In this document: one piece after another, positions 3,989 to 36,394 of the stretch | Numbering within the stretch: position 1 is the stretch's first letter | Layout of the letters: every line of letters begins with the position of its first letter | DNA from: a virus | IMG/VR virus record: IMGVR_UViG_3300037961_001616 | Span: 1 to 49,593 of that record | Reading direction: 5' to 3' (one strand) | Length of the DNA stretch: 49,593 nucleotides | The notes under the pieces: model-generated | Seen by the model: only the letters and a program-made list of their open reading frames with translations | What the model was told of the DNA's origin: nothing | Databases searched by the model: none | Made by a program: the position numbers and the translations under genes

Positions 3989-4017
3989 TTGCTGTATACA
4001 AATAACAACTAAATTTG
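3989..4017 (+). promoter_or_regulatory. Bacteroidota-type promoter (TTG-N18-TAAATTTG)
   Basis: TTG at 3989-3991 is separated by 18 bases from TAAATTTG at 4010-4017. This matches the Bacteroidota -33 and -7 elements (TTG, TAnnTTTG) with an accepted spacer. Only four bases separate it from the ATG at 4022, so the transcript is probably leaderless or nearly so. It would drive 4022 and the 49-residue gene after it. Confidence 0.65.
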
Positions 4018-4021
4018 CACC

Positions 4022-4432
4022 ATGGCAACAGTTTACCTTCCAGTAGAACCTACTGCAAACATGACTACTGAGGAGCGGGCCATGGCTATCAACGCCGAGG
4101 TTTGGAGCCTCCGACGCCCCGACTCAGTGAAGTCCCCGCAGGATGTCACGCGCTACTACTACCCCACCATCACTCACCCGACTACTGGTCAGTGGGCTAT
4201 CGTTGGGGAAACCGACGAGCAGGTGCGCATCCACCAAGACGTGGACATGACGGTTATGATTTCTTTGATGCCTGAAGTCCCGCAAGACGAGAAGGATCAG
4301 CTCGTAGCCTACATCGACGCCAACCGTGGAGGGACGGTAGCCTTCAGCACCTTCATCCCCTCCTCATCTACTCAACTCACCCATGCCGAAGCTGAAGCCG
4401 CAGGCTGGTTCCCTGACGACACCCTGAACTGA
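4022..4432 (+). CDS. Conserved-looking small protein, unknown function
   Basis: This 136-residue soluble protein has no recognisable family. It has a Tyr-rich strand segment (VTRYYYPTITHP), a central hydrophobic stretch (VDMTVMISLMPEV) and an acidic C-terminus. Its first residues, MATVYLPVE, match the start of the membrane protein at 16407 (MSTVYLPVQ) and a ten-codon fragment just upstream at 3973. A Bacteroidota-type promoter ends four bases before the ATG. It overlaps the next gene by one base. Confidence 0.6.
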   Translation: MATVYLPVEPTANMTTEERAMAINAEVWSLRRPDSVKSPQDVTRYYYPTITHPTTGQWAIVGETDEQVRIHQDVDMTVMISLMPEVPQDEKDQLVAYIDANRGGTVAFSTFIPSSSTQLTHAEAEAAGWFPDDTLN

Positions 4433-5568: not shown

Positions 5569-6149
5569 TGAAAACATTCGATCTATTTGTCGTTGAGCTA
5601 GAGAAGCTCACCAACGACACCATCACCACCGAGAGCGGGCTTGAGCTCTACGTGGACACCAAGTTCAACGAGTTCGAGCACAGGGTTACCGAGGGGCCAG
5701 TAGTCGCTGTCCCTTTCAAGTACGACACGGGCGTCAGCGTAGGGGATACGCTGTACTTCCATCACCTTGTCGTTATGAACGAGGGCCAGCCGCTGACGGG
5801 GGAGGACAACCACTACCTTGTACGCTACACACCCGAACACACCGTGAACAATCAAGCCATCGCATACCAAGACCAAGACGGCAACATCACCCCGCTTGGC
5901 GGGTGGGTGCTTCTAACTCCTGTAGAGGAGGAGGCTCCAACGCAGGACTCAAGCATCGAGGTCGTGAGCTTTTCGGAGCCTACAGTAACCAAAGGGGTGC
6001 TGGCTTTCGAGACCGAGGAGACCGAGGAGCTCGGGGTAGAGGTAGGGGATGTAGTGGGGTTCCCTGTCAACAGGGACTACAGCATCACGATTGAGGGGCA
6101 GGAGTACTATCGCGTAAGAAACGAAGACCTGCTCTATGTCCAGGAGTAA
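5568..6149 (+). CDS. Tandem GroES-like co-chaperonin
   Basis: This 193-residue protein appears to contain two GroES-fold modules. The second (about 110-193) has a GroES-like start (GGWVLLTPVEEE), a mobile-loop-like stretch (about 123-142), GVLAFE, GVEVGDVVGFPV and a terminal YYRVRNEDLLYV, like the end of GroES proteins. The first (about 1-100) repeats the order: FDLFVVELEK, loop, GPVVAVPFKYDTGVSVGDTLYFHH, then HYLVRYTPE. Such a protein would cap host GroEL and help fold virion proteins, as T4 gp31 does for its capsid protein. The ATG at 5568 (TAATG junction) is preferred over an in-frame ATG at 5514, which would overlap the previous gene. The family assignment is from motif reading. Confidence 0.6.
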   Translation: MKTFDLFVVELEKLTNDTITTESGLELYVDTKFNEFEHRVTEGPVVAVPFKYDTGVSVGDTLYFHHLVVMNEGQPLTGEDNHYLVRYTPEHTVNNQAIAYQDQDGNITPLGGWVLLTPVEEEAPTQDSSIEVVSFSEPTVTKGVLAFETEETEELGVEVGDVVGFPVNRDYSITIEGQEYYRVRNEDLLYVQE

Positions 6150-14695: not shown

Positions 14696-16407
14696 TGCCA
14701 GACATTAACGATATCAACGGGCTAGCTGTTGGGAGCATCAACGATATCAACGGGGTGCTCAAGGCGGACATCGCCGACATCAACGGGCTGACGATTCCGA
14801 GTGCCGCGGCGTTCCTGCTGGACACCACGTATGGTAGCGGCGCAGCTGCTGCCTACTCTGTGCGTAAGCTAGACAAAGACTACACCGGCAACTGCATGCG
14901 CATCAGGCGCGACAGCGACGGCGCTGAAACAGACATTGGTTTTGACAGCTCAGGCGACCTCGACACGGCAGCCATCGCCAGCCATTGCGGTAGCGCTAAC
15001 GGTTACTGTGTGACCTGGTTTGACCAAAGCGGAAACAGTGCCAACGTCACGCAGAGCGCAAGTATAGCTCAGCCGCAGATATACAACGGTACTGCTGTAA
15101 TTACTGAGAACGGCAAGCCGGCGCTTTACTTCAACATAGACAAACTTGGTATTAGTTCTGTCAGCTGGGGCGCTACTCGCACAATATTTACTGTGTTAGA
15201 GCCGGTTGCGTTTGACGGCTTTGACCCAGTTTTTGGCACGCGCGACGGATCAGCAAATTTTGCGGCGCTTGTTGGCACTACGGGCAATTATAAAATGCAG
15301 CAGCATGCTTCAGGGCAGTTTACTAACGTGGACACCGGGATAGCAATAACAACTGACCAGCAACTGATTTACACTTTGTTTGATGGCACTGGCTCTGAAA
15401 TAGGCAAAGACGCAAGCACGGCAGTCTCGGTCAGTTTAAAAGCAGCTAGTGCAGGAAACCACAGCATATCCAGCCGTGGCACAGATTCAGGTGACGGAGA
15501 ATTTTACATTCAAGAACATATTATATACACTAGCGACCAGTCTAGCAACCGCACCGCCATCGAGACCAACATCAACTCGGACTACCTCATCTACCAGCCC
15601 ACCGATCAACCTACTTCTGGGTTACTCTACGACTACGGCTCACAGAGTGGCGGTACGGATGCGGCAGTAGCGTACTCAGTAAGGCAGTTATCAGACAAAG
15701 CAGTTATCTGCATGCGTATCCGTCGTGACTCCGACGATGAAGAGCGCAACATCGGCTTTGACGCCAACGGTGACCTCGCAACGGCTGACATCGCTGCATT
15801 CTGTGGGACCGCGAACGGATACGTCACGCGGTGGTGGGACCAGAGCACCAACGGCAACCACGCCGACCAAGCGACGGACGCAAACCAGCCGAAGATTTAC
15901 AACGGCTTTGCGGTCATTACTGAGAACGGCCAAGCGGCGCTTGAATTTGATGGCACTGACTACCTCGACGCATCATCGGGAACTGTGACCCAACCGTTTA
16001 CGATATTTCAAGTGTCAAACCTTACTCGACAAGGCAGCTTCCAGACATTTTATTCGGGAATAGGTAGCCGCACAAGTGATGCAACATGGGGAAGCAGCAC
16101 TTTGAGAGTTGGTGTTTATAGCGGCCAGTTCAATGTGAACAGCAGTAGCGATTTGCCTGAAAGTCAAGTGCTTATGACAAACCTGCACGCTACGACATCT
16201 GTCCACCGTCGCGACGGCACTCAATATGCATCAGGTAATGGAGGCACGAATAACATTGTAGACTTTCGGATTGGCGGAATTAATAATGCAAATTTCCGTT
16301 TTGTCGGAACTATGCAAAGCGTCATCTTTTACGATTCTGACCAAACAAGCAATTTCACCGGCATCGAGACCAACATCGACAACTACTTCCAAATCCCAGG
16401 AATGTAA
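14695..16407 (+). CDS. Receptor-binding protein with duplicated arabinofuranosidase-B-like domain
   Basis: This 570-residue protein is built from two copies of one domain. Copy 1 (about 50-300) has AAYSVRKL, CMRIRRDSDG near residue 68, and TWFDQSGNSANVTQS. Copy 2 (about 322-570) has VAYSVRQL, CMRIRRDSDD near residue 340, and RWWDQSTNGNHADQAT. This pattern resembles the catalytic or lectin-like domain of alpha-L-arabinofuranosidase B found in many fibre tips. It begins with three short INDINGL-type repeats. The stretch about 15100-15540 is richer in A/T than its surroundings, as if swapped in. It most likely binds or trims a host polysaccharide. Confidence 0.7.
   Translation: MPDINDINGLAVGSINDINGVLKADIADINGLTIPSAAAFLLDTTYGSGAAAAYSVRKLDKDYTGNCMRIRRDSDGAETDIGFDSSGDLDTAAIASHCGSANGYCVTWFDQSGNSANVTQSASIAQPQIYNGTAVITENGKPALYFNIDKLGISSVSWGATRTIFTVLEPVAFDGFDPVFGTRDGSANFAALVGTTGNYKMQQHASGQFTNVDTGIAITTDQQLIYTLFDGTGSEIGKDASTAVSVSLKAASAGNHSISSRGTDSGDGEFYIQEHIIYTSDQSSNRTAIETNINSDYLIYQPTDQPTSGLLYDYGSQSGGTDAAVAYSVRQLSDKAVICMRIRRDSDDEERNIGFDANGDLATADIAAFCGTANGYVTRWWDQSTNGNHADQATDANQPKIYNGFAVITENGQAALEFDGTDYLDASSGTVTQPFTIFQVSNLTRQGSFQTFYSGIGSRTSDATWGSSTLRVGVYSGQFNVNSSSDLPESQVLMTNLHATTSVHRRDGTQYASGNGGTNNIVDFRIGGINNANFRFVGTMQSVIFYDSDQTSNFTGIETNIDNYFQIPGM
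14707..14787 (+). repeat. Short repeat encoding (I/A)-(N/A)-DINGL
   Basis: The 15-base unit AACGATATCAACGGG occurs at 14707-14721 and again at 14740-14754, 33 bases later. A related GACATCAACGGG lies at 14776-14787. The repeats sit at the extreme 5' end of the receptor-binding gene and encode an extended, flexible N-terminal linker. Confidence 0.7.
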
Positions 16408-16829
16408 TGAGCACCGTATACCTTCCCGTACAAGAGACAATGCGCATTGTATACATCACCCTCGTTGCAGTTATCGGACTGCTTCTCATCCCGCTCGGGA
16501 TGCTGTTCTCTTTCACCCGCGCCTTCCTTACGGTGCAGTGGAATCCCTTCCCGAAGCTCTCGGCGTACATCAACACCTTGGGGGTGGCTTTGTCACAGCT
16601 TCTCAACACCACGTGTGCGGAGCTCTTCAACGACTTCCTGATTGTAAACCAAGGCTTTGAGTTCGGCAACCCCGACTTCACCACTAGCGCTACGCTAGGT
16701 ATGAACGAACGCGAGGGGACTTTGAGGCCCTTGGGGAAGGCATTCGTCTGGGTCTTGGATAAGGTCGACAAGGACCACTGTCAGAAGGCACTGACCCAAG
16801 AACTTCTCTGCGAGTGTAAGCCTCGCTGA
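16407..16829 (+). CDS. Membrane protein, unknown function
   Basis: This 140-residue protein has a hydrophobic segment at about residues 12-41 (MRIVYITLVAVIGLLLIPLG, then MLFSFTRAF). The second half is soluble with FGNPDFTTSATLG and LGKAFVWVLDKVDKDHC. Proteins of this layout occur in other phage genomes without a known role. The first residues, MSTVYLPVQ, echo the start of the protein at 4022. It is coupled to the fibre gene by TAATG and is the last gene before the promoter at 16831. A holin-like or membrane-anchoring role is possible but not shown. Confidence 0.6.
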   Translation: MSTVYLPVQETMRIVYITLVAVIGLLLIPLGMLFSFTRAFLTVQWNPFPKLSAYINTLGVALSQLLNTTCAELFNDFLIVNQGFEFGNPDFTTSATLGMNEREGTLRPLGKAFVWVLDKVDKDHCQKALTQELLCECKPR

Positions 16830-16830
16830 T

Positions 16831-16838
16831 TATCTTTG
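16831..16838 (+). promoter_or_regulatory. Bacteroidota -7 element TATCTTTG before the surface cassette
   Basis: TATCTTTG ends four bases before the ATG at 16843, giving a leaderless or nearly leaderless message. No clear TTG is seen about 20 bases upstream. It would give the T9SS/outer-membrane cassette its own transcription start. Confidence 0.5.
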
Positions 16839-16842
16839 TATT

Positions 16843-19530
16843 ATGTCTGAAGACAGGGTACGGAAAAGGATTTCTCGGCTCCTCAAGAAGCACGGGCTGA
16901 GTGGAGTCAACAAACCCAAGCGTACCCCGTCGCACCCCAAGAAGTCGCACGTTGTTCTTGCTAAAGAAGGGGACAAGGTCAAGCTCATCCGTTACGGTGA
17001 GCAGGGGGCCAAGACCGCTGGCAAGCCGAAGGCAGGCGAGAGCGATCGGATGAAGAAGAAGCGTGCAAGTTTCAAGGCTCGTCACGCACGGAACATCGCC
17101 AAGGGGAGGATGAGCGCGGCCTACTGGGCCAACAAGAGCAAGTGGTGTCTACTGTTCCCGATCCTGTCTCTGCAGGCTCAGAGTTGGTTGAACGTAGAGT
17201 TTGTTTCTGATCAGTATGCAGCGGAGAGTAGCTGGGAGATTCTAGCAGACACCAACGTCGTGGCTTCGGGTGTAGCAGGAGAAACGTTGGTCAACCTGCC
17301 GCCTGGTCCGTATACGTTCGTAGCCTACGACAGCTTTGGCGATGGTATTTGTTGCGAGTATGGAGAGGGCTATATCGTCTTGAGCAATGCCTGTGGTGTA
17401 GATATCGAGGTCTTAGACTTCAACACCGCACAGCTTGACATCCCGATTAACTTATTGCCTTGCCCCCCGCCCGTGTTAGGGTGTATGGATGAGCAGGCCA
17501 CCAACTACAACCCAGAGGCAATCTTCGAGGGGGAGCCTTGTTTGTATGAGGTTACGTTCAGGCTAGACTTGAATGGCCCACACCCAGAGGGGATTGTAAC
17601 GCCCGAGGTCAACTCAGACTACTTTAGTTGGTGCGGGTCATGTGTTCCGATGGAAGACGCTGATGGTGACGGGGTGTGGGAGGCCACCGTCTCTATGGCT
17701 GCTGGGCAGTATCTATGGAAGTTCTCTGCAGATAATTGGACGTATCAAGAACTGCCTGTCGGCGTTGCAGAGTCCCCCTGTTTTATTTTCGATGAGTTTG
17801 GGTATGTCAACCGACCTCTGAACGTACAAGGCCCTATGGCCCTGCCGCCTTTTTGTTGGGAGAGTTGCCTGCCCTGCGGAGCTATCCCAGGCTGTACGAA
17901 CCCCGAGGCAATCAACTGGAACCCGTGGGCCAACTTCAATCAGAACTGCAATATTCTAGAGTCAGCCGACTGCGACTTCACCGAAACGGAGGTTATGGTG
18001 GTTGTTGTCCCTGACAACTATCCAGGGGAAACGGGATGGTCACTGGTAGATGTGACCAACGATGAAATCCTTGCCGCTGTTTTGGCTGGCGAATACGCAG
18101 GAGAACCTACAGGTATCCCGATTTTCAGTAGTGTCTGTGCTCCTATTGGTAGTCAGCTCTCGTTTACCATCAGCGATGTTTATGGTGACGGACTCAATGG
18201 CGCCCAGTGGGGTGGAGAGGACGGCGGGTTTGGTCTCCTTGCTTGCGGGGAGGAGGTCTATGCCATGGACCCTGCACAGGCCAACTTCGGATACAACTTC
18301 CAGCACCTCTTCCAGGCCCCTGCTTGCCTAGAGATAGAGGATATCGTTGGCTGTGGCGATCCCGACTACCTCGAGTACAACCCGAACGCGACGGTATTCC
18401 TTGACTTGCTGTGCGAGACCCCCGTGGTATACGGCTGTATTGACAGCGCGTACTACAACTACGACTCGCTTGCAAACGTAGAGTTACAGCCCGACTCTTG
18501 CTTCTATACGCTGACGCTCACTGACGGTGCTGCTGACGGATGGTTCGGTAGCTGGCTAGGAGTGCGTCAGGGTGAGTGGTTGTCCCCACAGTATAAGATG
18601 GGACCAGGGGACGGATTGGAAGAGTCCTTTGAGCTGTATTTGTCTAGCGACAAAGAAGTAGAGTTGTACTTCTTCCCTACCCCGCAGTCTATGTTCACTG
18701 TGGCTCAGTGCGGCTTCATGCTCGAGGGGCCAACAGGAGACACCCTCGTCAACGTGCCACAGTGGAGCATTATCCCCTTCCCGTACACGTACAAGGCTAC
18801 GACATACTGCGGGAACTTTTGTGAAGAGTTTTCCTACGGATGCTTAGACACTTTGGCTCAAAACTACGACGTCTATGCCAACAGCCCTGATAGCAGTTGT
18901 TACTACGCTGCAGGGTGCATGCAAGCTGGGTATTTAGAGTACTACACTCAAGGGTACGAGGCTGACTATGACGATGGTTCTTGTTTAACGTTGGCGGCAT
19001 TTGGTTGCACAGACTCTACCGCTTTGAACTTTGACGAGGGGGCGAACGTAGACAACGGAAGTTGCATCCCCGTTGTGGTAGGGTGCATGGATTTGTCGGC
19101 ATACAACTACAATGCGGAAGCCAATACCGAAGGTGATTGCCTGTATGATGCGGGGTGCGCTACAGGTCCAGGCGTTCCGTACTGGCTGAACGACTCTTGC
19201 TACGCTTGGGTTATTGAGGTCGACCCGTATTGCTGCGAGGCAGAGTGGGACGGAGGGTGTATCGGGCTGTACGATTACTGTCAGCAGGGGTGGCCTACGG
19301 GTGTTCCTGAGTTAGCAGACGAGGTCACAATCCGCCCGACGGTAGTTGAGCACAAGTTCTATGTGGACGCACCATACCCGTTTGTATTGACTGTCTTCGA
19401 TGCCACTGGCAGGAAGGTGTTAAAATCGTCCAGCGCTACGCAGGACGCATCGGATTGGCCTGTCGGGACATATCACCTCGTAGTAGTTTCTGACAATCGC
19501 ATGTTCAAGCAAACTATCGTCAAGCTATGA
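16843..19530 (+). CDS. Phage basic domain fused to a T9SS type A secreted surface protein
   Basis: This 895-residue reading frame joins two unlike parts. Residues 1-101 are a basic phage domain (RTPSHPKKSHVVLA, SFKARHARNIAKGRMSAAYW) known as a small stand-alone phage protein. Immediately after comes a Sec signal peptide (KSKWCLLFPILSLQAQ) with predicted cleavage near 113/114. The rest is a Bacteroidota surface protein: a YDSFGDGICC-type domain, a carbohydrate-binding-like domain (WCGSCVPMEDADGDGVW), and about eight Cys-rich repeats of the GCTDSTALNFDEGANVDNGS type. It ends in a Por-secretion (type A T9SS) tail (VFDATGRKVL, VGTYHLVVVSDNRMFKQTIV). An in-frame ATG at 17110 (residue 90) could start a normal-length signal peptide. 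The ATG at 16843 sits four bases after a -7 element, so two products are possible. Confidence 0.75.
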   Translation: MSEDRVRKRISRLLKKHGLSGVNKPKRTPSHPKKSHVVLAKEGDKVKLIRYGEQGAKTAGKPKAGESDRMKKKRASFKARHARNIAKGRMSAAYWANKSKWCLLFPILSLQAQSWLNVEFVSDQYAAESSWEILADTNVVASGVAGETLVNLPPGPYTFVAYDSFGDGICCEYGEGYIVLSNACGVDIEVLDFNTAQLDIPINLLPCPPPVLGCMDEQATNYNPEAIFEGEPCLYEVTFRLDLNGPHPEGIVTPEVNSDYFSWCGSCVPMEDADGDGVWEATVSMAAGQYLWKFSADNWTYQELPVGVAESPCFIFDEFGYVNRPLNVQGPMALPPFCWESCLPCGAIPGCTNPEAINWNPWANFNQNCNILESADCDFTETEVMVVVVPDNYPGETGWSLVDVTNDEILAAVLAGEYAGEPTGIPIFSSVCAPIGSQLSFTISDVYGDGLNGAQWGGEDGGFGLLACGEEVYAMDPAQANFGYNFQHLFQAPACLEIEDIVGCGDPDYLEYNPNATVFLDLLCETPVVYGCIDSAYYNYDSLANVELQPDSCFYTLTLTDGAADGWFGSWLGVRQGEWLSPQYKMGPGDGLEESFELYLSSDKEVELYFFPTPQSMFTVAQCGFMLEGPTGDTLVNVPQWSIIPFPYTYKATTYCGNFCEEFSYGCLDTLAQNYDVYANSPDSSCYYAAGCMQAGYLEYYTQGYEADYDDGSCLTLAAFGCTDSTALNFDEGANVDNGSCIPVVVGCMDLSAYNYNAEANTEGDCLYDAGCATGPGVPYWLNDSCYAWVIEVDPYCCEAEWDGGCIGLYDYCQQGWPTGVPELADEVTIRPTVVEHKFYVDAPYPFVLTVFDATGRKVLKSSSATQDASDWPVGTYHLVVVSDNRMFKQTIVKL
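17110..17184 (+). other. Internal start and signal peptide within the fusion gene
   Basis: The in-frame ATG at 17110 would give MSAAYWANKSKWCLLFPILS, then LQAQSW. This is a short basic n-region, a hydrophobic core and an AxA-like end. The full-length start puts 89 hydrophilic residues before the same core, which usually weakens Sec export. This supports, but does not prove, a second start for the exported form. Confidence 0.4.
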
Positions 19531-20561
19531 GGTTTCTGTTAGTTCTACTCCTGTGCGTCCCACTAACGAGTGGGGCTCAGACACTGAAAAAGGCGTTTCG
19601 GTTCTCGACTTTTTATGCGGCTGTCAACGGAAACAACTCGCTTTCTGACTACAAGACGTATTCGGTTGTCAATGGTCCTCTGTCTACAGACATCGTAGAG
19701 ACTCCGTTCGACTACTCTTTGACTCTTGGTATCCGCAAGATTGCTAGGTTCAAGTACGAGAACAGGGCCAACGTCTTCTACAACGGCGAGGAGCACTCCT
19801 ACTCCGATGCAGCTACGATCGGTACGGTCAAAGGTTTCGAGTTTCTTTTTGAGAGCGACTACCGCAGGCAGCAGGGAGTGCTTTACCTAGACCAGAACCA
19901 CTTCCTGAGATATGTTGGGGGCAGGTTCGTAGGGAAAGTGGAGTACGTACAGGACGGCTTTGCTGACGTCAGCTACCTCGAGGCTTCCCAGAGATTGCGC
20001 ATCAACTCTAAGGGTAAGCTGTCTTTCAATATCGGTGCAGCCCAGCGCATCTCGGAGCCGTATGGGTACAACCCACTGAAGCAATGGGAGTTGCCAAACG
20101 GAAGTTTACACTACACGCAACTTGCTTTCAGTCAAGGCTACAGCTACGACTTCTCTACGGGGGAGTACATAGACCCCGACGGAACAGTTGTCGCTAGTAG
20201 TTTCGAGGTGTGGCGGGAGGTTGTCATCCCGCAGATTCTTGACGACTACGTCCAGCTCAAGCGTAGCGAGTTAGACACAGAGTGGAACTATTCTCTGGTC
20301 GCGGGCTTTGACTACTACCATTACACCAAAGACTTTTGGTTACACTCGTGGGGTAATGTCTTGCCTCGGCATTTAGATACGGGGTCAGAGTTTTCCTACT
20401 TCCAGCTCAACGACGGGCAGTGGGTTGACTATAGTGGGGGATTGATTTTTGGTTGGAAGCTAAACAAATCCCTAGGCTGCTTCTTGGAGGGTAGATACAA
20501 CAAGTATTGGAACAGAGAGTGGCACGACTTCTCGGTCGGGGTCAACTACGTAATATTCTAA
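19527..20561 (+). CDS. Outer-membrane beta-barrel protein
   Basis: This 344-residue protein has a clear signal peptide (MRFLLVLLLCVPLTSGAQ) followed by alternating strands with aromatic girdles (ARFKYENRANVFY; GFEFLFESDYRRQQGVLYL; KWEYSL-like and LVAGFDYYHYTKDFW segments). It ends in an aromatic residue (VGVNYVIF), as barrel proteins do for BAM recognition. It starts in an ATGA overlap with the T9SS type A gene, so the two are translationally linked. In Bacteroidota, secreted surface proteins often pair with an outer-membrane barrel such as PorP/SprF. A barrel partner or surface receptor blocker is the likely role, but the exact family is not recognised. Confidence 0.7.
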   Translation: MRFLLVLLLCVPLTSGAQTLKKAFRFSTFYAAVNGNNSLSDYKTYSVVNGPLSTDIVETPFDYSLTLGIRKIARFKYENRANVFYNGEEHSYSDAATIGTVKGFEFLFESDYRRQQGVLYLDQNHFLRYVGGRFVGKVEYVQDGFADVSYLEASQRLRINSKGKLSFNIGAAQRISEPYGYNPLKQWELPNGSLHYTQLAFSQGYSYDFSTGEYIDPDGTVVASSFEVWREVVIPQILDDYVQLKRSELDTEWNYSLVAGFDYYHYTKDFWLHSWGNVLPRHLDTGSEFSYFQLNDGQWVDYSGGLIFGWKLNKSLGCFLEGRYNKYWNREWHDFSVGVNYVIF

Positions 20562-20563
20562 TT

Positions 20564-20848
20564 ATGGCAAAAGAGATTAACGAGGATATGGGGTTCAACG
20601 TCAGCCTGAAAACTTTGGCTGGTATTGGAATCGGGATGTCGTCTCTCATCGGAATGTGGTTTACCCTGCAGGCCGATATCGCTGAGGCCAAGGAGCTTCC
20701 AGCCCCTCTCCCGTCAGAAGTTTCACGCATGGAGTTCGACATGAAGGACCAACTCATCCGTCAGACGATTATGTCTACCCAGGAGGATGTAGGGGAAATC
20801 AAGGAGGACATTAAGCGTATTGAAGAAAAAATCGATAAACTCAAATAA
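20564..20848 (+). CDS. Membrane-anchored coiled-coil protein
   Basis: The 94-residue protein has one transmembrane helix at about residues 15-36 (LAGIGIGMSSLIGMWFTLQ). After a short linker comes a charged coiled coil (VGEIKEDIKRIEEKIDKLK). The ATG at 20564 is chosen; an in-frame ATG at 20507 lies inside the barrel gene. This layout is seen in phage spanin-like, holin-associated and superinfection proteins, and cannot be separated further here. It lies two bases after the barrel gene. Confidence 0.6.
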   Translation: MAKEINEDMGFNVSLKTLAGIGIGMSSLIGMWFTLQADIAEAKELPAPLPSEVSRMEFDMKDQLIRQTIMSTQEDVGEIKEDIKRIEEKIDKLK

Positions 20849-20856
20849 GATGAACA

Positions 20857-21222
20857 ATGAAAGGTGTGCTTGCCCTCTTTGTCTTGTCTGCTCTGTTCTC
20901 GGCCACTGTCTTTGTGGCTGCGTCTGCGGACAGTGAAGTGTGCGAGTCTGGCGTTTGCGTTGTAGAGTTCAACGCAAGTTTCAACGCCACCAACAGTGTC
21001 CCGTGGATTGAGAAGTTGAGCGATTGTTCGACGTCTCGTGTAGATATTGTCTCGAGCCCTGATTTACAGCAGAAACATAAAATCGTAGTAGTTCCTACTA
21101 TTATTATCTTTAACGACGGAGAGGAAGTAGAAAGATTTCAGGCAAACATTATGATGGCTATCGAAGCCTCTAAGTCTGATGTCCAAGAGGCTGTAGATGA
21201 AATCCTAATGAGCTCGTTCTGA
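20857..21222 (+). CDS. Secreted thioredoxin-fold protein lacking the CxxC
   Basis: The 121-residue protein starts with a hydrophobic signal or anchor segment (MKGVLALFVLSALFSATVFV). The rest follows a thioredoxin fold: first strand CVVEFNASF, helix, and the cis-proline strand VVVPTIIIFNDGEEVERF. At the place of the active-site Cys-Gly-Pro-Cys it reads Asn-Ala-Thr-Asn, so redox activity is not expected. Other cysteines (CESGVC near the mature N-terminus, and one at SDC) could form a structural disulfide. It follows the surface genes in the same run and may act as an envelope scaffold or inhibitor. Confidence 0.6.
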   Translation: MKGVLALFVLSALFSATVFVAASADSEVCESGVCVVEFNASFNATNSVPWIEKLSDCSTSRVDIVSSPDLQQKHKIVVVPTIIIFNDGEEVERFQANIMMAIEASKSDVQEAVDEILMSSF

Positions 21223-36386: not shown

Positions 36387-36394
36387 TACATTTG
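36387..36394 (+). promoter_or_regulatory. Bacteroidota -7 element TACATTTG for internal virion genes
   Basis: TACATTTG ends five bases before the ATG at 36400, predicting a leaderless message. No TTG is seen about 20 bases upstream. No terminator separates it from the upstream gene. Confidence 0.55.

Follow-up and report, generated by a model that had tools for sequence, protein, structure and literature searches.

How does a small, conserved phage gene come to run without a stop codon into a large exported surface protein, and what does such a gene make? The question is raised by one open reading frame in the stretch of DNA analysed here (the window), the IMG/VR virus record G000 of 49,593 bases. 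The frame runs from an ATG at 16843 to a TGA (16843-19530, + strand) and encodes 895 amino acids. It joins phrog_7595 (residues 1-101), a signal segment, a protein with GCTD repeats, and a T9SS type A sorting domain. The two parts have contrasting isoelectric points, 11.3 for residues 1-101 (31 Lys and Arg, no Cys) and 4.1 for residues 102-895 (40 Cys).

The basic phage domain is encoded at 16843-17145 (+ strand). Positions 7-96 of the 96 in the phrog_7595 profile align to residues 12-101 (E 3.3e-39); the profile thus ends at residue 101, in agreement with the first-pass annotation, which placed the in-frame join precisely where the domain ends. Structure prediction for this N-terminal domain was poor, with blocks mostly at pLDDT 44-72. 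The segment that follows, CLLFPILSLQAQ (residues 102-113; 17146-17181, + strand), is a putative signal segment that lies internally instead of at the N terminus and is conserved in all fused members. It has a short hydrophobic core of about 10 residues with an A/Q cleavage site and, by hydropathy, the core in the window is weaker than in separate relatives.

The rest of the chain is predicted to be exported. The Cys-rich body (17182-19296, + strand) carries GCxD repeats identified by alignment (eight GC-x-D/N/Q repeat cores in residues 102-895), is predicted to contain adhesin-like beta-sandwiches, and includes a CBM48-like domain that Foldseek matched to the AMPK glycogen-binding domain, a modelled similarity that suggests glycan binding. 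The T9SS type A sorting domain and the stop codon occupy 19297-19530 (+ strand). Against TIGR04183 ("T9SS type A sorting domain") the window scores 24.2 bits, just above the curated cut-off of 23, compared with 31.9-54.5 for phage relatives; its PF18962 score of 12.9 is under the cut-off of 27. The predicted fold of the sorting domain resembles the NucA CTD (8glk_D; 75 of 75 residues, rmsd 2.2, Foldseek with the predicted model). The original description of this part as a T9SS type A exported protein is supported. A PDB sequence search with the fusion protein and with the barrel encoded next to it found no match.

The fusion seam is TGG TGT (17143-17148, + strand). Codons 100-102 read AAG TGG TGT and encode Lys, the conserved terminal Trp, and a Cys at the position where relatives have their stop. 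In 74 of the 80 nearest separate phrog_7595 genes a stop codon (TAA, TAG, or TGA) directly follows the Trp codon; the domain normally forms a gene of its own, about 100 codons long. With residues 102-895 as the query, the same in-frame join was found in eight further IMG/VR contigs (L082-L089), whose C-terminal parts are 74-98% identical; with the window included, they comprise seven distinct sequences. The seam codon across this group is TGT, TGC, or TTC and is always sense, and stops at the junction, by which the first-pass annotation would have recognized an error, occur only outside the fused group. A missed stop, or a sequencing or assembly error, is ruled out because eight other contigs carry the same join, and readthrough, which had also been considered, does not apply to a frame that has no stop at its seam. 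The chance of a random open frame of 794 codons is about 4e-15 at the GC content of the window, which together with the retention of the join in the eight contigs excludes chance. A second search aimed at the signal region yielded no additional fused contigs. Two contigs with tails of 36-39 residues on the domain (L058 and L072) were considered as a second kind of fusion and rejected, as the tail overlaps a downstream gene that is out of frame.

Both halves of the fused gene are under purifying selection, as judged by dN/dS values within the fused group of 0.08 for the domain, 0.06 for the signal segment, 0.05-0.16 for the body, and 0.11 for the sorting domain; in many pairs, synonymous changes are close to saturated. 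No second copy of phrog_7595 was present in any fused contig (contigs of up to 62 kb, which are fragment records). The low dN/dS and the single domain copy argue against either half being baggage.

The predicted exported half of the fusion also opens a cassette of three genes (surface protein, outer-membrane beta-barrel, and thioredoxin-like protein) that spans 17146-21222 in the window. Gene 2 (19527-20561, + strand) overlaps the fusion gene at an ATGA and encodes a predicted exported outer-membrane beta-barrel with the signal peptide MRFLLVLLLCVPLTSGAQ, about 12 long strands, and an aromatic C-terminal residue (it ends in VIF). Its AlphaFold2 model (pLDDT 76) matches NanC and OmpG in Foldseek. 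Gene 3 (20857-21222, + strand) encodes a predicted exported thioredoxin-like protein (PF00085, E 6.7e-5). Its 121 amino acids contain no CxxC active site, and it is therefore unlikely to be a redox enzyme; the fold motif VVPTIIIF is retained.

This cassette occurs in dozens of marine phage loci (further loci L090-L191). Among the 61 viral loci with enough flanking DNA, the surface-protein gene lies at most 1.3 kb upstream of the barrel gene in 58, and all three genes lie within 6 kb in 57. The cassette is found after phrog_7595 and, elsewhere, between portal and coat genes, by a holin gene, and in contigs of up to 245 kb. The barrel family has at least 585 confirmed IMG/VR matches; in 84,980 bacterial and archaeal genomes it was found at five places, and 295 of the 296 genomes of one Bacteroidota order had no match. 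Of 296 Bacteroidota genomes, 15 contained matches to the surface protein, all of them partial and confined to single domains or repeats, and neither this protein nor the barrel matched any INPHARED phage record. By these counts, the cassette is a mobile phage module that is almost absent from bacterial genomes. Since it is frequent in phage loci and nearly missing from bacterial genomes, the exported half is better called a phage gene built from Bacteroidota-type domains than a recently captured host gene. The initial notion that the phage had domesticated a host surface gene was therefore abandoned: this is a phage family with its own partner genes, and host genomes provide relatives only at the level of domains.

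Two observations on the cassette families may be added. Five barrel-family matches came from a Woesearchaeota MAG, RS366 (G014; 0.6 Mb, archaeal label; loci L192 and L193), where the identity is 31-34%; they are probably phage or Bacteroidota contigs in the bin. In L090 (about position 5917) and L098 (about position 1129), about 74 nt of the surface gene are shared with a tiny basic phage gene ending in KAYRGQGR, so that the long signal-peptide n-region of the surface gene is coded over the tiny gene.

Comparison of the fused contigs locates the point at which they exchange DNA. Between the window and L082, synonymous differences are 0.74 in the domain and 0.12-0.15 after the seam, with a change point located at nt 298 (297-315) of the coding sequence, on the seam (lnLR 40). 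The DNA of the pair is 95-98% identical from the seam through the end of gene 3 and then 76% and 40% identical, while the flanks of the cassette are 40-80% identical. The opposite pattern is seen between L084 and L087, where the domain is common and the body has diverged. In a third arrangement, L155, the surface gene has its own start, an ordinary signal peptide, a different sorting domain, and no phage domain, and its body is 76-96% identical to a fused body over residues 102-751. Together, these three patterns indicate that the domain travels with the phage backbone and that the cassette is swapped at borders of which one is the conserved end of the domain. The same backbone also occurs with a separate phrog_7595 gene and no cassette (L002).

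On the tree of the surface protein, the separate form of L155 nests within the fused members. A single clean fused clade is contradicted by this position, and fused and separate forms probably interchange by recombination. Support in the N-domain tree was too low to count fusion origins. Because the fused surface gene lacks its own start, only in-frame recombinants can work, and this requirement may maintain the fusion. A less purposeful account is that the fused frame is a tolerated accident of recombination with little function, in which the domain would tolerate any tail and the surface protein could be dispensed with. The breakpoint on the seam, the short extra tails of some separate domains, and the interchange of forms in L155 would fit such an accident. 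It is nevertheless quite improbable, because dN/dS stays low in all four parts (domain, signal, body, and CTD) with synonymous divergence near saturation, the frame is kept in seven distinct sequences, and cassette genes 2 and 3 are retained alongside.

Other contigs contain related arrangements. In two of them (L113:5398-5691 and L115:5260-5553), phrog_7595 overlaps a related surface gene by 7 nt out of frame (ATGGTAA), and the start codon of the surface protein falls inside the last codons of the domain. This overlap was considered as the direct ancestor of the fusion and rejected because the tree places their surface protein in another branch; it is a parallel case. In L177 (6626-8995), the partner joined in frame to a related surface protein is a different basic phage protein, phrog_14910, and the canonical Met of the signal peptide is kept; this is a possible second, independent fusion, found in one contig only. 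A homologue of the window gene at 4022-4432 lies directly before phrog_7595 in L085 (5246-5644), where the window has the gene at 16407-16829. The slot before phrog_7595 thus appears to be another swapped slot beside the fusion.

The window can be placed with the crAss-like phages by its terminase, portal, coat protein, and muzzle genes, families that were matched by profile search. The relevant matches are phrog_6681 (E 3.9e-209), phrog_6547 (E 7.4e-189), and phrog_13704 (E 1.5e-119), which we take to be crAss-type families, and crAss_MUZ_C (28.2 bits against a cut-off of 27). Terminase matches include Azobacteroides and Cellulophaga phages, relatives of which are counted among the crAss-like phages (PMC10136315). 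In phage records nearly all terminase matches are Bacteroidota phages, such as those of Flavobacterium, Cellulophaga, and Tenacibaculum; the top single match is an uncultured phage from Manatee Spring (47%). On the basis of these matches, a marine member of the Bacteroidota, the phylum that has T9SS, is the probable host. The fused members form a small group of uncultured marine crAss-like phages.

A Bacteroidota -7 promoter box, TATCTTTG, is located at 16831-16838 (+ strand), 4 nt before the ATG. The TAnnTTTG box stands at exactly this distance from the domain ATG in the window, L082-L085, L087, L088, and L002, and the 4-nt spacing is also seen in L113 and L115. In Flavobacterium, the promoter box spans -12 to -5 (PMC9723704, PMC6847099), which with this spacing places +1 on the A of ATG 16843 and predicts a leaderless mRNA that starts there. 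A sigma70 promoter scan was uninformative (2 matches, 3.7 expected). Two more TAnnTTTG boxes lie 4-5 nt before gene starts of the window (4010-4017 and 36387-36394), which suggests that this phage may use leaderless messages repeatedly.

The first-pass annotation had left two options, one chain from the first ATG or an exported form from an in-frame internal ATG at 17110-17112 (+ strand), which is codon 90, a weak candidate start within the MSAAYW motif of the domain. If both starts were used, one frame would give two products: the first ATG would yield the domain with an inefficiently exported surface part, and ATG 17110 a normally exported protein with the signal peptide MSAAYWANKSKWCLLFPILSLQA, which would be of normal length. 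This codon is present in all fused members as the only conserved in-frame ATG between the domain start and the signal; it has an A at -3 and a strong Shine-Dalgarno-like stretch (in the top 9% of internal ATGs), of a kind found at few gene starts of the window. However, since nearly all separate domains have the motif that includes this Met, its conservation is uninformative. The AT content upstream of 17110 is 0.35, whereas it averages 0.62 over 31 gene starts of the window phage, and the local structure predicted there is stronger (-16.9) than the average (-10.5). The phage has AT-rich gene starts without a preference for Shine-Dalgarno motifs, and Shine-Dalgarno sequences are naturally lacking in Bacteroidota (PMC6847099). 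ATG 17110 therefore looks like an ordinary internal ATG, and we regard production from both starts as unlikely. Promoter placement and start-site context favour the first of the two options, a single chain from 16843.

We propose that this single chain is split during export. A mobile surface-protein cassette sits directly behind phrog_7595, and its gene 1 has lost its own start codon and the n-region of its signal peptide, so that the surface protein would be made only as the C-terminal part of the 895-residue chain, translated from 16843 on a leaderless mRNA. The basic domain would remain in the cytoplasm, and its Lys-x-Lys-Trp end would double as the n-region of the signal peptide. The buried signal sequence would route the rest of the chain through Sec, and signal peptidase I would cut near LQA|Q. 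The surface protein would thereby be released from the phage domain, which would retain a tail of about 10 residues, and the sorting domain would then pass the surface protein to the host T9SS. Outside, the Cys-rich, CBM-like protein would probably coat the infected cell together with the co-encoded barrel. The most plausible benefit would be receptor masking, with the exclusion of competing phages, or the binding of surface glycans; masking is a guess. If cassette gene 1 needs the domain for its start, recombinants are expected to keep the frame, as they do. We give this explanation as a whole, from the single chain to the surface coat, a probability of roughly 55%. Several features count against it: the signal segment has a short hydrophobic core of about 10 residues, a weaker one than separate relatives have, a basic domain of 101 residues ahead of a cleavable signal is unusual, a Shine-Dalgarno-like stretch precedes 17110, the sorting-domain score is marginal, and the model of the N-terminal domain is poor.

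The chain might instead stay intact and be displayed on the virion. If phrog_7595 is a structural protein of the head region, the fusion would place a glycan-binding adhesin on the particle, similar to the Ig-like decorations that other phages carry. The domain lies between the portal and coat genes, both in the window and in cyanophage KBS-S-2A, it is weakly similar to phrog_220 (a minor head protein family), and the predicted adhesin-like and CBM-like domains of the body would suit this role. Yet the virion location of phrog_7595 is itself putative, purifying selection acts on a signal segment and a sorting domain that display within an intact chain would not need, and in L155 a body of up to 96% identity follows a normal signal peptide without any phage domain. 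Display on the particle is accordingly improbable, and the split chain remains our preferred reading. One form of it is a phage polyprotein divided by the host signal peptidase, in which a leaderless message would give, in a fixed 1:1 ratio, a head-region protein that stays in the cytoplasm and a surface protein displayed by the T9SS, the phage C-terminus would serve as n-region, and the cassette would be exchanged at the seam. For this form we put the odds a little below even.

If correct, a late phage protein whose cleavable export signal lies internally, after a conserved phage domain, would be a phage counterpart of viral polyproteins processed by signal peptidase. The results also point to an uncharacterised, common marine phage module (surface protein, outer-membrane barrel, and thioredoxin-like protein) with which the phages apparently remodel infected Bacteroidota cells at their surface via the host T9SS.

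Phage-encoded T9SS cargo is already known. Cryophage has been described to encode an endoglucanase, a glycoside hydrolase, and a PA14 protein as T9SS cargos (PMC7468147), and in gut crAss-like lineages ORFs with T9SS domains adjoin the head gene section (PMC6949934). Both concern Bacteroidota-linked phages with T9SS type A sorting domains, as in the window, and the gut crAss-like ORFs share with the fusion their place beside the head gene section; the passages on these cargos mention no joining to a phage protein and no partner genes for a barrel or a thioredoxin-like protein. In the open-access literature we found no report of a T9SS cargo fused to a conserved phage protein, or of the cassette.

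The T9SS type A cargo of Bacteroidota (TIGR04183; NucA CTD in 8glk) has a signal peptide, a modular extracellular body, and a beta-sandwich CTD, as is predicted for the fusion, and differs in that the putative signal peptide of the fusion is internal, after a basic phage domain of 101 residues. Separate phrog_7595 proteins (S-CBS2, CRP-1, KBS-S-2A, HMO-2011, and many marine phages) are small and basic like the domain of the window, which is full-length, 85% identical to that of the cassette-free crAss-like L002, and has the common Lys-x-Lys-Trp end; in KBS-S-2A, the gene has the same slot between minor head and coat genes. The separate proteins stop after the Trp, whereas the window continues into a putative signal peptide and about 780 residues that are predicted to be exported, so the usual trait of a separate gene ending after KxKW is absent from the window and the eight other contigs. 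The capsid-prM polyprotein of flaviviruses also has a small basic viral protein followed by an internal signal sequence that signal peptidase cuts. This is an analogy of layout only, as the flavivirus sequence is unrelated, the process takes place at the eukaryotic ER, and a viral protease takes part as well. The Ig-like or Hoc-type accessory domains of phage particles resemble the fusion in being adhesive beta-sandwiches joined in frame to phage structural genes. They act on the particle, and none is known to combine a signal peptide with a T9SS sorting domain.
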